From: a virus
Length of the DNA: 28,967 bases
IMG/VR virus record: IMGVR_UViG_3300037553_000324
Span: 1 to 28,967 of that record
Reading direction: 5' to 3' (one strand)
Within the stretch, counting starts at the first letter, position 1; each line of letters opens with the position of its first letter. The notes under the pieces are model-generated. The model did not search any database, was not told where the DNA came from, and saw nothing but the letters and a program-made list of their open reading frames with translations. Of the stretch, positions 2,554 through 8,119 are shown in pieces. A program made the position numbers and the translations under genes.

Positions 2554-4973
2554 TGGCTTGGTTTTCTAGCGACGATGAGGAAGATAAGGAAAAAACTTCA
2601 TCTCCTATAGTAGAAGATAGGTGGCTCGGCGCAGTTGCGGGCAATAAATTAGACGGTTATAATAACTCCACATACAACTGGCGGCTTTATATGATACCAG
2701 ATGATGACGGCGATGGCGGTGGATATATGAACGGTGCCCTAAAAGCTGAACCAGCAAATACAGTAATTATTGCCCAGACGGGTGTAACTGGTATAGCAAT
2801 AGATAATGTATCCTTAAACATTGTTAAAGGTAACTCTGGTGCATTTGTTACTAACGGTTCGTTTACACTTATACAACCAGGTGCCGCAGACTTACTAGAT
2901 CAAATACAACTATCTAAAAAAGTATTAGGCATTGAAGCAGGCATGTTTGCTAATGTACCAATATTTCTAGAGTTATCTTTTAAAGGCTATACAGAAGATA
3001 TAGATGATACCGAAGCGGAAGGCAAGCCTGTTACGATTGACGGTCCATGGTGCTGGCAATGTGAGATTGCAACTATCGATGTGAGTATAACTGAAGAAGG
3101 TAGCACATACGACTTTACAATAGTTATTGGATCTCAAAACGCATACTCAGATATATTTTATACACTTCCAGCTGACACTAGTATGACTGGTAGCACTATT
3201 GCTGAGTGTATTGAAAATTTACAGGAAACACTTACTAAGTTTAGAGAAGACAATTATAAAGAACATGCTGTACAAGACGAAGTAGAATTTGACCTATCTC
3301 AATTGAGATCCGTAATTGGCGAGGGCGAAATTAAATATAACAGCTATGAAAATGCGGAGCAAATAAACAGATTAATGAATGCTCAAGCCCAGGGTATTAA
3401 AACAAGAAAAGAATATGATAAAGTATTAGAAGATAACCCAGAAAGTTTAGATGGTGGAATTAAAGCATCGGGCGGAATTTTCCGGAGAGACAGAATACAA
3501 ATTAAAGAAGGCACAAACTTCCATAGAATTTTAACAACATTGCTTGTGATGAACGAGGAGTTTTTAGATACATGCCAAAGAAAAAAAGGGGCAATGGATG
3601 ATCCAAATATAAATGAAGACGGGTTTGACTTAGCACAAACATTTACGAAATGGTACAGGATTAATGCATACGTTGAATGGAAAGAATATGATCATAGACG
3701 AAACACTTATGCAAAAAAGATTACATACCAGCCTGTGATTTATGACACGGCAGACGGCGACCAAATTATGGCGGCGGCAGAAAATAACACCAAGAAAGAA
3801 GATGTTAATATTCGAATCAAGGAAATGTCAATTAAGAAAGCATATCATTACTTGTATACCGGACTAAATGACCAAATATTAAATGCTGATATTTCGTACC
3901 ATGCAGGACAGTTACTATTAGGTGCACCCGGCGGAGGAAAGCTAGGAGACGCATCTACTAATCCTAACGCTCCAGGCGGTCAGGCAAGTACTGGCGACCC
4001 AGATGGGACTCAAGCCAAGGGTGATTACGCTGTGGCAACTGCAGACATAGATGGATTATCGAACCAATTGGCTACTGACTCGAACCTAATGCAACGTGTT
4101 CAAGATAAACTCAATTTAACAGAGACAGAAAAGAAAGCTATACAAGACGATGAACAAAAAAGAAAGAATTTAGCAGAAGCAATAATATTTTTAAATGCAC
4201 AAGGATCAAATCCATTAGGTTACAAGAAAAGCGAAGCAAAAGGAACAAATCCATATGTACCAGTCAGCCCGACTGATGTAGTAGATGATACTTACTCACC
4301 GGAGCCAAGCGGGTATCTATATAGTGCAGAATTATTATCAGACACAGGTGGAAGTGAAACTGTTATAGGTGAACTTAGTGGAGCAACAGCACTTAATACT
4401 TTAAAAAATTCACTTAATGCTAAGGATGATGATGAAGATACTGGCCCGAGACCAGGCTTTGGCTATGCGGCAAGTATTGTGTCTACGTCAGGCAACACTA
4501 GTGACGGAACAGCTAAAGCAACATTGTTTGGATACATGTTCCAAAATGTTAATGATGCTAGTATTTTAGTTGACTTAAATTTAAAAGTTAGGGGCGATCC
4601 GTGGTACTTAGGTGCGAAGCCAAAAGATCCAATAAAGGGAAGAGACATGGCCCAACGGATTTCAGATAGTGGAACGGCAACCAGTCTAGATGCTATATCA
4701 TACGACGGTAATGATAATTACTTTTTGTTTACAATGCAAACTCCTAGGGTAATAGACCCTGATGTAGACGATGAAGATAACAACACAGGGTATATGAGTC
4801 AAAAAGGCACATCATACTTTATAAGTGGGGTATATCAAATTATGGGAGTAACAGCAAATTTTAACGGTGGCATGTTTGATTTAGATTTAAATGCTAAAAA
4901 GCAAACAGCACTAGACTTATCTAAATACGATCTCGTAAATGTAGATTATAATTTAAGTGAAGGTGACGAGTAA
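2553..4973 (+). CDS. Large baseplate hub-type structural protein (gp27 position)
   Basis: This 806-residue acidic protein lies directly before the spike gene gp5, where a hub protein is expected. Residues about 30-205 form a beta-rich N-terminal domain (NWRLYMIP, VIIAQTGVTGIAIDNVSLNIV, GSFTLIQP, PIFLELSFKGYTED) typical of large marine T4-like hub-region proteins. Residues about 455-490 are a Gly/Pro/Asp linker. The C-terminal domain, about 678-791, contains LKVRGDPWYLG and later FISGVYQIMGVTANFNGGMFDLDLNAKK, a pattern seen in phage hub proteins that bind the spike. A T4 gp27-like ring role is inferred from order and these motifs; I cannot show direct gp27 homology. Starts and stops overlap neighbours by TAATG on both sides. 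Confidence 0.6.
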   Translation: MAWFSSDDEEDKEKTSSPIVEDRWLGAVAGNKLDGYNNSTYNWRLYMIPDDDGDGGGYMNGALKAEPANTVIIAQTGVTGIAIDNVSLNIVKGNSGAFVTNGSFTLIQPGAADLLDQIQLSKKVLGIEAGMFANVPIFLELSFKGYTEDIDDTEAEGKPVTIDGPWCWQCEIATIDVSITEEGSTYDFTIVIGSQNAYSDIFYTLPADTSMTGSTIAECIENLQETLTKFREDNYKEHAVQDEVEFDLSQLRSVIGEGEIKYNSYENAEQINRLMNAQAQGIKTRKEYDKVLEDNPESLDGGIKASGGIFRRDRIQIKEGTNFHRILTTLLVMNEEFLDTCQRKKGAMDDPNINEDGFDLAQTFTKWYRINAYVEWKEYDHRRNTYAKKITYQPVIYDTADGDQIMAAAENNTKKEDVNIRIKEMSIKKAYHYLYTGLNDQILNADISYHAGQLLLGAPGGGKLGDASTNPNAPGGQASTGDPDGTQAKGDYAVATADIDGLSNQLATDSNLMQRVQDKLNLTETEKKAIQDDEQKRKNLAEAIIFLNAQGSNPLGYKKSEAKGTNPYVPVSPTDVVDDTYSPEPSGYLYSAELLSDTGGSETVIGELSGATALNTLKNSLNAKDDDEDTGPRPGFGYAASIVSTSGNTSDGTAKATLFGYMFQNVNDASILVDLNLKVRGDPWYLGAKPKDPIKGRDMAQRISDSGTATSLDAISYDGNDNYFLFTMQTPRVIDPDVDDEDNNTGYMSQKGTSYFISGVYQIMGVTANFNGGMFDLDLNAKKQTALDLSKYDLVNVDYNLSEGDE

Positions 4974-6538
4974 TGAGTATAAGCGGAAAATATAAAGCAG
5001 ATAAATTTAAAGTTAGTAGAACTAACCCAGTAGAATCATTTCGAAAAAATGCAGATTTAGATTTTGGTATATACTTAGGAGAAGTTATAGTTAGACCAAA
5101 AGATGATACTCACTCTGGGCGATTAACAGTATACATACCATCACTAGGTAAAGACAGAGATAATCCAAGTAACTGGGTAAATGCTTTTTGGAGTACACCG
5201 TTCGGCGGAAGTACACCTTCCAATAGAATAGGTACAGAAGTAACATCATATCTTGAAACACAAAAAACATACGGCATGTGGATGGTCCCACCCGATGTAG
5301 GTAACTGGGTACTAGTATGTTTTGCTGATGGTAAATCTAAACAGCCGTTTGTATTAAGTTGTTTACTTCCGGACCAAATGGCTTACATGGTACCTGGTAA
5401 CGCTGGTGGCAAAACATGGGGCCTAGACCAAAAATTACCTGTAGCAGAAGTTAATAGAAATACTGAAACTTTAGATCATGGTAATTACTCTGAGAGACCA
5501 ATAAACCCGTACATAACAAAACCTATTTTAGACCAGGGATTAATTAACGACAAGCTCAGAGGTATATCTACTTCTAGTGCAAGAAGAGAATCGCCAAGTT
5601 CAGTATTTGGAATATCTACTCCTGGTGCAGAAGATTTAAATGTAGAAACAAGTAAAAAAGACGGCACACACAGAACAGGTGGACACAGTTTTGTAATGGA
5701 CGATGGCGATATTGATGGCGCAAGTAGAAATATAAGAATTAGAACAGCAGGTGGCAATCAAGTATTAATGGACGACACTAACGGACTAATTTATATAATA
5801 AATGCAAAAGGTAATGCATGGATAGAGATGAGTGGAGATGGAGACATTCAAATCTATAGTGAAAAAGATATTTCATACAGAGCTAAAGGCAACATTAATA
5901 TACGAGCAGACAAACACTTAAACTTAGAAGGTAACACATCCGTAAATATTGCGGCTGGTGTATATGGTGAAGCACACGAACAACAGGACGAAGACGGCAA
6001 CCAACGTGGCGTACTTAACATCAATGCCGGTGCAGAAGCCTCCATGAAAGTTATGAAAGACTTTGTTTTAGACGTGGACGAGAAAGGCAGTATGCATTTA
6101 ACTGCTAGAAACAACATATTTGCTACAGCAGAAAAAGACATGCATGTAAATGCTAAAGCTAATATGTATAATACAGCACAGGATACTCAACACATTAGGT
6201 CCGGTGGAGAAACTACTGTACAGGCTGGAGGCAGAGCAAACGTATTAGGCAGTACAGTACATTTAAATGATGGTGGTAGTGCAACACAAGCAGAGCCTAG
6301 TCTATCAGCAACCGCAATTCCACTAAATGGTTATAAGGATCAAGGAGTACTAGTACCAGGGTGGGAGTATGATATCCAAGCGACTAGCAAGGAGAATCCA
6401 TTAACAACTGAAGGTAAGAGAGAAGATGAGGACGACGGTGATGAAATTAATAGTATTATAGATACAACAATGCTGACTCGCGAGCCATACATTGATCACA
6501 TCAGAGACGGAAATGATTGGGAGCCGGGTGCCTCTTAA
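4973..6538 (+). CDS. 5: Baseplate spike protein gp5 (OB fold plus beta-helix, no lysozyme domain)
   Basis: The protein has 521 residues. Residues about 30-160 form the OB-fold: GEVIVRPKDDTHSGRLTVYIPSLG, then GMWMVPPDVGNWVLVCFADG and an FVLSCLLPD strand. Residues about 225-440 show the short alternating strands and turns of an intertwined beta-helix (GGNQVLMDDTNGLIYIINAKGN, DGDIQIYSEKDISYRAKGNINI, ADKHLNLEGNTSVNIAAG), as in the gp5/VgrG needle that pierces the outer membrane. T4 gp5 carries a lysozyme domain between these parts; here residues 160-225 are only a linker-like stretch, so enzymatic wall digestion would need another protein. The C-terminus (IDHIRDGNDWEPGAS) is acidic. Last gene of the four-gene late operon; its stop touches the stop of the convergent gene. 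Confidence 0.85.
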   Translation: MSISGKYKADKFKVSRTNPVESFRKNADLDFGIYLGEVIVRPKDDTHSGRLTVYIPSLGKDRDNPSNWVNAFWSTPFGGSTPSNRIGTEVTSYLETQKTYGMWMVPPDVGNWVLVCFADGKSKQPFVLSCLLPDQMAYMVPGNAGGKTWGLDQKLPVAEVNRNTETLDHGNYSERPINPYITKPILDQGLINDKLRGISTSSARRESPSSVFGISTPGAEDLNVETSKKDGTHRTGGHSFVMDDGDIDGASRNIRIRTAGGNQVLMDDTNGLIYIINAKGNAWIEMSGDGDIQIYSEKDISYRAKGNINIRADKHLNLEGNTSVNIAAGVYGEAHEQQDEDGNQRGVLNINAGAEASMKVMKDFVLDVDEKGSMHLTARNNIFATAEKDMHVNAKANMYNTAQDTQHIRSGGETTVQAGGRANVLGSTVHLNDGGSATQAEPSLSATAIPLNGYKDQGVLVPGWEYDIQATSKENPLTTEGKREDEDDGDEINSIIDTTMLTREPYIDHIRDGNDWEPGAS

Positions 6539-6542
6539 TTAA
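6535..6542. repeat. Palindrome shared by two convergent stop codons (TTAATTAA)
   Basis: The TAA of gp5 (6536-6538) and the TAA of the minus-strand gene (6541-6539) abut with no intervening base inside TTAATTAA. There is therefore no space for an intergenic terminator. A T-run at 6555-6560 lies just inside the minus-strand gene, but I see no convincing GC stem before it. Confidence 0.85.
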
Positions 6543-6736
6543 GAATTATTTAAACTTTTTTGTAAATCAGCAAACTTTATATAAGCCCTATATTTGCCTT
6601 CTTGTTCTTCAGCAACCATTTTTTTAAGTCTTTCTATTTCGGCTCGTAATCTATAGTTCTCATTATTCTTTTCGACAAGCATAACCCGTAATTCTTCTTC
6701 TAATGTGTCGTTAAGTGATGAATTGATGTTAGTCAT
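6539..6736 (-). CDS. Small coiled-coil protein of unknown function
   Basis: The minus-strand frame gives 65 residues from the ATG at 6736, which I prefer to an in-frame start 36 bp upstream because this ATG overlaps the end of the hydrolase gene by 8 bp, the usual coupled arrangement. Residues about 10-50 are highly charged with a heptad-like pattern (LEEELRVMLVEKNNENYRLRAEIERLKKMVAEEQEGKYR), predicting one long amphipathic helix that could form a coiled coil. There is no cysteine, signal or membrane segment. It is the last gene of the three-gene minus-strand cassette. I do not recognise a family; an oligomerisation or partner-binding role is possible but unproven. Confidence 0.7.
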   Translation of the reverse strand: MTNINSSLNDTLEEELRVMLVEKNNENYRLRAEIERLKKMVAEEQEGKYRAYIKFADLQKSLNNS

Positions 6737-7355
6737 AAAATATCTCAGATTTAATAATTTCCACTGTTTCAAAATTAACTAGTACTTCGTTGTGACTAGT
6801 ACCCATTTCAATCTGTTTCAAATTATTAAAATTACTTGGAACAGATTTCTGTGTTCTAACCGTAAGAGTGCCGTCGTTTGACTCTCCCATACCGGCAAGA
6901 GCATTACCGAATCCTCTAGTTCCGGTAGTTACTATATTAATTATCTTAAAATCGTTATTAACACTTTGTAATGCTGTAATAAACGCACTCTTTGGATTTA
7001 ATGCTGTAAATAGTTTACTATGTCTGAATGCATACGACAGCCACTTTGCTGTTCTACTGCCGGCCCATGGAGCACTCATAGCTATAAAGGCGTTGCAATT
7101 AGCAAATGATTGTACTGCTTTTATTCCTAGTAAACATCCGTAACTATGTGCTATTACGGAAAATGGCGCATGACCGAACTCGTCGAGTATTTGCATTTTT
7201 ATACGATTTACCAATCTTTCAGGCTTTTCATGAGTATCGTACTCTATGAAAAGTACGTTATGCTCTGGCAAAAATATGTGTAAATAGTTATAACTAATTG
7301 CAGATGCGCCGCTCCCATGTATGAAAACTATATTTTTACTATCCTCTACTAGCAT
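6729..7355 (-). CDS. Alpha/beta hydrolase (lipase/esterase-like serine hydrolase)
   Basis: This 208-residue protein has the parts of a small alpha/beta hydrolase in order: strand plus oxyanion loop VFIHGSGAS (residues 10-18), nucleophile elbow I-A-H-S71-Y-G-C around residue 71, an acidic candidate D161 in ESNDGTLTV, and a catalytic histidine candidate H188 in GTSHNEVL. The nucleophile elbow reads A-H-S-Y-G, with Ala in place of the first Gly of GxSxG, a variant tolerated in the family. There is no signal peptide, so it probably acts inside the infected cell. The substrate cannot be read from sequence. The gene overlaps the upstream gene by 17 bp and the downstream gene by 8 bp and is transcribed against the flanking structural genes, from a host-type promoter. 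Confidence 0.82.
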   Translation of the reverse strand: MLVEDSKNIVFIHGSGASAISYNYLHIFLPEHNVLFIEYDTHEKPERLVNRIKMQILDEFGHAPFSVIAHSYGCLLGIKAVQSFANCNAFIAMSAPWAGSRTAKWLSYAFRHSKLFTALNPKSAFITALQSVNNDFKIINIVTTGTRGFGNALAGMGESNDGTLTVRTQKSVPSNFNNLKQIEMGTSHNEVLVNFETVEIIKSEIFYD

Positions 7356-7614
7356 TCTTCAACATGGTTTCCATCTCATAGAATTCTTGCGGGACTTTTC
7401 CTTTTTGTCCTACAAGATTAACCATTTCAAATAACACATATCCTTTAGTGTGGTAATCGTAAATGCCCACAGAATGTAGACGATTCTGTTTTTTCGTCTT
7501 CATTTGATAGAAGCGAGGCCCGTATCCGGAAGACTTATCAGTTAATTTTAACTTCCTGTTAACTGCGTCTGCTTTTTTGCAAATGCTGTCAAATCGTTCA
7601 ATGATGTTTCTCAT
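7339..7614 (-). CDS. Small protein of unknown function, first gene of the minus-strand cassette
   Basis: From ATG at 7614 the frame gives 91 residues, MRNIIERFDSICKKADAV...; a TTG codon directly upstream is a less likely start. AGGA at 7625-7622 lies 7 nt before the ATG. The protein is basic and soluble, with an N-terminal helix, a central segment with beta character (GPRFYQMK, SVGIYDYHTKGYVLFEMVNLV) and a C-terminal helix (PQEFYEMETMLKNASRG). I recognise no family. It sits next to a host-type promoter and overlaps the hydrolase gene by 17 bp, so the two are likely co-translated. Confidence 0.7.
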   Translation of the reverse strand: MRNIIERFDSICKKADAVNRKLKLTDKSSGYGPRFYQMKTKKQNRLHSVGIYDYHTKGYVLFEMVNLVGQKGKVPQEFYEMETMLKNASRG

Positions 7615-7629
7615 CAAATATTCCTATAA

Positions 7630-7637
7630 AATTTATA
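7630..7637 (-). promoter_or_regulatory. Weak candidate late box (TATAAATT) on the minus strand
   Basis: Minus-strand TATAAATT differs at one base from TATAAATA and, with T4 late spacing, would start RNA just before the ribosome site of the gene at 7614. The surrounding DNA is almost entirely A and T, so a chance match is likely. Confidence 0.2.
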
Positions 7638-7666
7638 AAAATTAGCAAGATATTTCTTACTATGTT

Positions 7667-7695
7667 AGTATATATCCTTTATGTTTAAAAGTCAA
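7667..7695 (-). promoter_or_regulatory. Host sigma-70-type (early) promoter for the hydrolase cassette
   Basis: On the minus strand the -35 is TTGACT (7695-7690), the spacer is exactly 17 bp, and the -10 is TATACT (7672-7667). Transcription would begin near 7660, about 46 nt before the first gene of the cassette. Both hexamers and the spacing are identical to the promoter before gp55, which implies the two minus-strand units are expressed at the same time, early in infection, although they are embedded among late genes. Confidence 0.82.
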
Positions 7696-7725
7696 CATTT
7701 TTTAGGCTTATTATAACTAGTTTTA

Positions 7726-7737
7726 ATCCTTAAGGAT
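7726..7737. repeat. 12-bp palindrome overlapping the gp25 late promoter
   Basis: ATCCTTAAGGAT is a perfect 12-bp inverted repeat whose last three bases are the first three of the GATAAATA box. It could be a protein-binding site over the promoter or a by-product of AAGGA acting as a ribosome site. A perfect 12-mer palindrome in an AT-rich spacer is suggestive only. Confidence 0.4.
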
Positions 7738-7742
7738 AAATA
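7735..7742 (+). promoter_or_regulatory. Late promoter box GATAAATA for gp25-gp6-giant ORF
   Basis: This octamer is identical to the box at 1492-1499. With the T4 geometry (box at -13 to -6) the start site falls at 7748, which is the A of the gp25 start codon, so the transcript may be leaderless. AAGGA at 7732-7736 could act as a ribosome site only for transcripts starting farther upstream, with a long 11-nt spacing. Confidence 0.72.
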
Positions 7743-7747
7743 GTTGT

Positions 7748-8119
7748 ATGGCAAATATATACCGAGGATTCAGCACAGTAGGACAAGTAAGAGCGCCTTA
7801 TACTTTGATCGATGGTGCTCTTATAAAAGCAGATTTGCTCAACGAACTTTACACCAAGAGGGGTGAGCGAGTGATGAGACCTACATACGGGACTAGAATT
7901 TGGGATATTATAATGAACCCTTTAGACCAGTATGTCGTTAACGAAGTTAAGGAAGATATTGAACGTATAGTAGAAAAGGACAGTAGAGTAGAAATGACCG
8001 ACATGTTTACTGACGTACTAGACCACACAATTAGCATAACACTACATTTAAAGTTTAAACCATTTCTAGCAGAAGACACATTATTTGTAAAATATGCAAG
8101 GGAAAACATAGAGACATAA
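7748..8119 (+). CDS. 25: Baseplate wedge protein gp25
   Basis: The protein has 123 residues, close to the T4 gp25 length (132). The conserved gp25/lysozyme-like wedge pattern is present: an N-terminal F-x-T segment, I-K-x-DLLNELYTKRGERVMRPTYGTRIWDIIMNPLDQYVVNEVKEDIERIV (residues about 28-78), and a C-terminal beta pair ISITLHLKFKP. This is the EPR/RPxFG-type wedge core (here RPTYGTRIWD) that, with gp6, forms the (gp6)2-gp53-gp25 wedge and contacts the sheath initiator. It is the first gene after the second late promoter, and one base separates its stop from the gp6 start. Confidence 0.92.
   Translation: MANIYRGFSTVGQVRAPYTLIDGALIKADLLNELYTKRGERVMRPTYGTRIWDIIMNPLDQYVVNEVKEDIERIVEKDSRVEMTDMFTDVLDHTISITLHLKFKPFLAEDTLFVKYARENIET

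Follow-up and report, generated by a model that had tools for sequence, protein, structure and literature searches.

An operon of three genes lies between the baseplate genes gp5 and gp25 of an uncultured virus, and sequence comparison indicates that it is an old, stable feature of an uncultured phage lineage and not a recent insertion. The operon has a fixed gene order, is conserved as a unit, encodes a hydrolase with an intact catalytic triad, has a promoter of a recognisable class and carries a covarying leader hairpin. The reading proposed here stands about an even chance of being right: this would be a core operon of uncultured jumbo-type myoviruses akin to the Pseudomonas phage PA5oct, transcribed early in most members and by the host RNA polymerase, whose hairpin-protected message would encode a translationally coupled trio that includes a cytoplasmic ester or thioester hydrolase.

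Organization and Conservation of the Operon

The DNA analysed is the IMG/VR virus record IMGVR_UViG_3300037553_000324, positions 1 to 28,967, and the whole of this stretch of 28,967 bases is referred to as the window. Its genes run in the order late sigma factor, structural, baseplate wedge, structural, gp5, the three-gene operon, gp25 and gp6 (Table 1). Among annotated sequences, the baseplate wedge gene of the Pseudomonas jumbo phage PA5oct and its kin comes closest. An earlier note on this DNA had described three overlapping minus-strand genes between gp5 and gp25, and these are present exactly where it placed them; the open reading frames overlap by 17 nt (small protein and hydrolase, the first overlap) and by 8 nt.

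How widely is this unit kept? A profile search of IMG/VR returned 74 hydrolase loci, and eight more loci found through the small protein also proved to carry the hydrolase. All three genes were measurable in 82 loci, window included, with 51 distinct hydrolases; these loci are related, several are near-identical, and the counts do not represent independent events. The order gp25, small protein, hydrolase, coiled-coil-like protein was found in 74 of 74 loci, always antisense to gp25 and gp5, with gp5 next wherever the contig extends that far. The earlier note had proposed to check whether the three genes are conserved together and whether relatives have the whole unit at this site. All three are co-conserved in 82 of 82 measurable loci, and site and order are the same in every locus that could be checked. 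The overlap between the small-protein and hydrolase genes is 17 nt in 74 of the 82 loci (20 nt in five and 8 nt in three), which suggests translational coupling.

Table 1. Coordinates of the operon, its neighbours and associated sequence elements (positions in the window unless a locus is named).
Feature	Position	Strand	Remarks
Late sigma factor gene	512-1390	minus	
Promoter of the same type as that of the operon, before the late sigma gene	1441-1413		
gp5	4973-6538		one flank of the operon, antisense to it
Coiled-coil-like protein gene	6539-6736 from ATG (6772 from TTG)	minus	65 aa
Alpha/beta hydrolase gene	6729-7355	minus	208 aa, Ser71-Asp161-His188
Small protein gene	7339-7614 (from ATG)	minus	91 aa, predicted alpha-beta-beta-beta-alpha; homologue of PA5oct gp352
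Predicted 5'-terminal hairpin of operon mRNA	7643-7662	minus	8-bp stem, 4-nt loop; z -4.7
Sigma-70-type promoter of the operon	7667-7695	minus	TTGACT-17-TATACT; read 7695-7667
Palindrome TTAAAACTAGTTWTAA between divergent promoters	7711-7726	none	same site in 38/38 representatives
Late-promoter-like box GATAAATA of gp25	7735-7742	plus	kept in 38/38 representatives and PA5oct
gp25	7748-8119		other flank of the operon, antisense to it
Palindrome, further copies	L217:2771-2786; L219:2641-2656 and 2677-2692; L221:1657-1707		
Late-like box of the late-box clade	upstream of small-protein gene		L130, L131, L133-L139, L141, L142, L144, L153

No PDB fold matched the model of the small protein at E<=0.001, and a sequence search with it matched nothing useful. 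A role as a late coactivator like T4 gp33 was considered and dropped: gp33 is all-helical, whereas the small protein is predicted to have the mixed fold given in Table 1. The coiled-coil-like protein has two conserved motifs, LNxTxEExLR and KYxAY.

A Phage Family of Alpha/Beta Hydrolases

The longest protein of the operon had been described in the earlier note as a serine hydrolase with a plausible triad of Ser71, Asp161 and His188, whose conservation among homologues was to be checked. The triad is intact, and all three residues are invariant in the 82 loci (51 distinct hydrolases), as are a His-Gly pair at 13-14, Ser94, Pro96, Trp97, Gly99 and Ser100. An AlphaFold2 model (mean pLDDT 80, residues 148-159 poor) has the alpha/beta hydrolase fold. 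In this model, S71 comes just after strand 65-70 in a nucleophile elbow of the form Sm-x-Ser-x-Sm (AHSYG in the window), and the other two residues follow in the canonical order, D161 after strand 137-143 and H188 after strand 179-184. Foldseek matched the model to many alpha/beta hydrolases in the PDB with a probability of 1.00 and E values down to 1.3e-7, with TM scores of only 0.5-0.6.

What might the enzyme act on? Abhydrolase_6 was matched by 18 of 20 members of the family, and fewer members matched LCAT (five of the 20 at E<=0.001), palmitoyl thioesterase and DUF676. Sequence matches in the PDB include PhaZ7, palmitoyl-protein thioesterase 2, LCAT and lipase A. The window protein itself scores below every Pfam gathering threshold (for LCAT, PF02450, it reaches 13.2 bits where the cutoff is 21), and for this reason any substrate class assigned to it is tentative. 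Sequence and model together suggest that it hydrolyses esters or thioesters and has a short cap; it would reside in the cytoplasm, as a signal peptide is not apparent by eye. A characterised close homologue was not found, nor was a report of this hydrolase in jumbo phages in the literature searched. Among GTDB contigs, 21 pattern hits to possible bacterial relatives gave no confirmed case; the seed patterns were strict and distant cellular relatives could escape them.

Promoter and Timing of Transcription

The sigma-70-type promoter that the earlier note had assigned to the operon is present, with a 10/12 match to the consensus, which is by chance not rare within one AT-rich intergenic stretch. 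All 25 representatives that fall outside one clade keep it in position, in the form TTGACT-17-TATACT or TTGACT-17-CATAAT, and the corresponding site of PA5oct reads TTGACG-17-TATACT. The description of the operon as a self-contained unit with its own early-type promoter is supported. In a relative of 339,794 bp, promoters of the TTGAC-17/18-TAYAWT-like class number 44 on the operon's strand and 4 on the other, against 6 and 6 in a read-backwards control. The operon's strand also holds most long ORFs in eight sampled 20-kb pieces of this relative; in the piece around the baseplate genes, by contrast, the other strand is the main coding strand. Promoter class and strand bias support a predicted early transcription by the host polymerase.

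The exception is a single clade of 13 representatives (support 0.885), in which the sigma-70-type promoter is replaced by the late-like box GATAAGTA or a close variant. This box resembles that of gp25; the leader hairpin and the palindrome are retained in the clade. The claim that the operon is early thus holds in part: promoter class and strand speak for it, and the late-like box of these 13 members speaks against its holding for every member. Could the hydrolase instead be a lipase that acts late, or in lysis, on the membranes of the host? A late-like box where the sigma-70-type promoter would be, together with the weak profile matches to LCAT and lipase, would fit such an enzyme. The early-type promoter is nevertheless kept in 25 of 38 representatives, and the operon is located on the early strand, which makes a lysis role quite improbable.

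A Predicted Hairpin at the Start of the Message

The element that is new in this analysis is a predicted hairpin that leads the mRNA of the operon. For each leader, the 32 nt after the -10 box or the late-like box were folded, and z scores were taken against dinucleotide shuffles. A hairpin with a stem of 5-8 bp was found in 38 of 39 operon leaders, PA5oct included, with a mean z of -2.5; the lineage L169-L171 is the exception. There are 19 distinct stems, whose positions each show two to six types of pair, as expected of compensatory changes, and GNRA-type loops are common. The pair types were counted hairpin by hairpin because a MAFFT alignment of the hairpins shifted the stems.

Leaders of other genes average no such structure. 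In 19 control leaders behind promoters of this class, taken from six relatives and, in the window, from the late sigma gene, the mean z was +0.28 (Mann-Whitney p 1e-8 for the difference from operon leaders, with relatedness ignored), and in 32 further leaders from the 339,794-bp relative it was -0.06. The first control is the fairer one, since the 339,794-bp relative belongs to the lineage whose operon leader has no hairpin. Counting from the -10 box, the stem begins after 4-8 nt, and counting from the late-like box, after 8-9 nt; this would place it at or near the expected start site of transcription. Rfam had no match in the window.

In E. coli, RppH and RNase E depend on a single-stranded 5' end, which explains how 5' structure stabilises a message (PMC3997798). 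In phage T4, gene 43 is autoregulated through a hairpin operator in its leader, located about 40 nt ahead of the start codon (PMC3014915). The operon hairpin is read as a putative 5'-terminal element that would either stabilise the message or serve autoregulation. Stabilisation is preferred because it is the shape of the hairpin that is conserved, and not the sequence. A reasonable alternative, given that PA5oct keeps both the hairpin and the small protein, is that this protein acts in autoregulation.

The inverted repeat overlaps the predicted start site, and in several leaders a T-rich stretch follows the stem; on these grounds it could also be an operator that a repressor reads as DNA, or could attenuate transcription. 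However, 19 stem sequences with frequent GNRA-type loops point to selection on RNA shape and not on DNA read by a protein, and the A/T-rich stems are weak for a standard terminator. Such a DNA-level or attenuating role is therefore unlikely, if worth keeping in view, and an RNA element that protects or regulates the message is the preferred reading.

Late Boxes and a Palindrome

The palindrome between the divergent promoters, TTAAAACNNGTTTTAA, is separated by 4 or 8 nt from GATAAATA late boxes. The late boxes that bear it are those of gp25 and of a baseplate-hub gene (phrog_150), about 16-18 kb apart, and at the latter it forms a tandem pair in some cases. It is near-unique in the 339,794-bp relative, with one exact copy, and PA5oct has none. 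The palindrome may be a binding site of a late regulator.

Three observations were made alongside. At 1482-1499 of the window, two GATAAATA boxes on opposite strands form an inverted repeat just upstream of the first late gene (1517). The 339,794-bp relative shows a strong strand asymmetry, in that most sampled regions code on the promoter-rich strand, opposite to the baseplate block. In three relatives, the baseplate-hub gene adjoins a gene for a large aspartate-repeat protein of the DxDGDGxxD type (L217:13-1587, L219:3839-5482 and L221:2851-3990); the one such protein tested had no match in PHROG.

Age of the Operon

Was the operon inserted as a cassette, as the earlier note supposed? PA5oct (NC_071039) has two minus-strand genes, gp352 and gp351, between gp5 and gp25, in the same gene order as the window. 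Homology links the first of these to the small protein (hhalign probability 95.7%, E 9e-9), which the second, gp351, did not match. PA5oct and the operon thus have in common the site, the strand, a sigma-70-type promoter, a 5' hairpin and a homologous first gene. PA5oct differs in having no hydrolase, a second gene unrelated to the small protein, and no TTAAAAC palindrome. A profile search found the hydrolase absent from PA5oct, RaK2 and Atu_ph07, and a search of IMG/VR with gp352 did not find intermediate cassettes.

Because PA5oct has promoter, hairpin and small protein without the hydrolase, these three would make up the older unit. The hydrolase was either gained in the operon's lineage or lost in PA5oct, which is a single outgroup.

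Distances among the hydrolases and among the small proteins follow those of gp25 (Mantel r 0.86 each), as expected under vertical descent. The minority of pairs that are unsaturated gave median dN/dS values of 0.38 (coiled-coil-like protein), 0.32 (hydrolase), 0.20 (gp25) and 0.11 (small protein). A recently acquired cassette would account for an operon antisense to its neighbours and for the lack of the hydrolase in PA5oct, RaK2 and Atu_ph07. It would not account for identical site and order in all checkable loci, for a divergence that parallels gp25, or for a first gene, promoter and hairpin found at the same site in PA5oct. Recent acquisition is for these reasons very improbable, and the data favour a long-resident operon over an inserted cassette.

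Proposed Role of the Operon

In the mechanism proposed here, the host RNA polymerase would transcribe the operon early in most members, and the mRNA would start with the hairpin. The hairpin would shield the 5' end from decay of the RppH/RNase E type, or act as an RNA operator, and production of the three coupled proteins would outlast that from a typical early mRNA. For the hydrolase, the most likely identity is a lipase-like alpha/beta enzyme of the cytoplasm, with a short cap and activity on esters or thioesters. Its target in the host would be an acyl ester, a lipid or an acyl-thioester, and the two small proteins would be its partners or regulators.

Alternatively, as the earlier note suggested, the hydrolase might be an effector of counter-defence or host takeover, which early in infection would destroy a molecule that the host uses for signalling or defence. 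An early-type promoter and a small enzyme with an intact triad are consistent with this, as is the accessory position of the hydrolase in a shared early unit, given that PA5oct does without it. Counter-defence genes are usually patchy, whereas the hydrolase is present in all 82 measured loci; no PADLOC family matched any of the three operon proteins, and one clade has replaced the early promoter by a late-like box. An effector of this kind is therefore improbable.

The lipase-like enzyme with two partners remains the preferred reading. Its fullest version is that a jumbo-phage lineage guards one early operon by a 5' hairpin whose conserved shape outlasts a switch from a host-type to a late-type promoter, and that an undescribed hydrolase and two dedicated partners act on a host acyl ester or thioester. 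Taken as a whole, this version is doubtful.

The analysis defines a phage hydrolase family unmatched in 50,697 phage records, in which neither the hydrolase nor the small protein had a match, with two small proteins fully co-conserved. The hydrolase is linked to an early unit that a culturable Pseudomonas phage also has, so that part of the proposal is open to testing. A hairpin that persists through a promoter swap would likewise allow a test of whether a phage singles out one early message for stabilisation or regulation.

Comparison with Known Systems

The mRNA-stabilising 5' stem-loops of E. coli ompA and papA are the nearest parallel to the leader hairpin, which is likewise predicted to begin at or within a few nucleotides of the 5' end. 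In contrast to these, it belongs to a phage early operon, with a predicted start site and a putative effect on stability. Compared with the operator of T4 gene 43, it has neither a conserved loop sequence nor a known RNA-binding partner, but it too precedes the start codon by tens of nucleotides, in the leader of a phage message that is transcribed early.

The hydrolase finds its closest counterparts among lipase-like members of the alpha/beta hydrolase superfamily, such as Abhydrolase_6, LCAT (PF02450), palmitoyl-protein thioesterase, PhaZ7 and Bacillus lipase A. It stands apart from them as a family of its own, with sub-gathering Pfam scores, TM scores of about 0.5-0.6 and a short cap. Nonetheless, it has a like fold, the nucleophile elbow and the order Ser-Asp-His, and it shares with these enzymes an SxPWxGS segment after the strand that follows the nucleophile.
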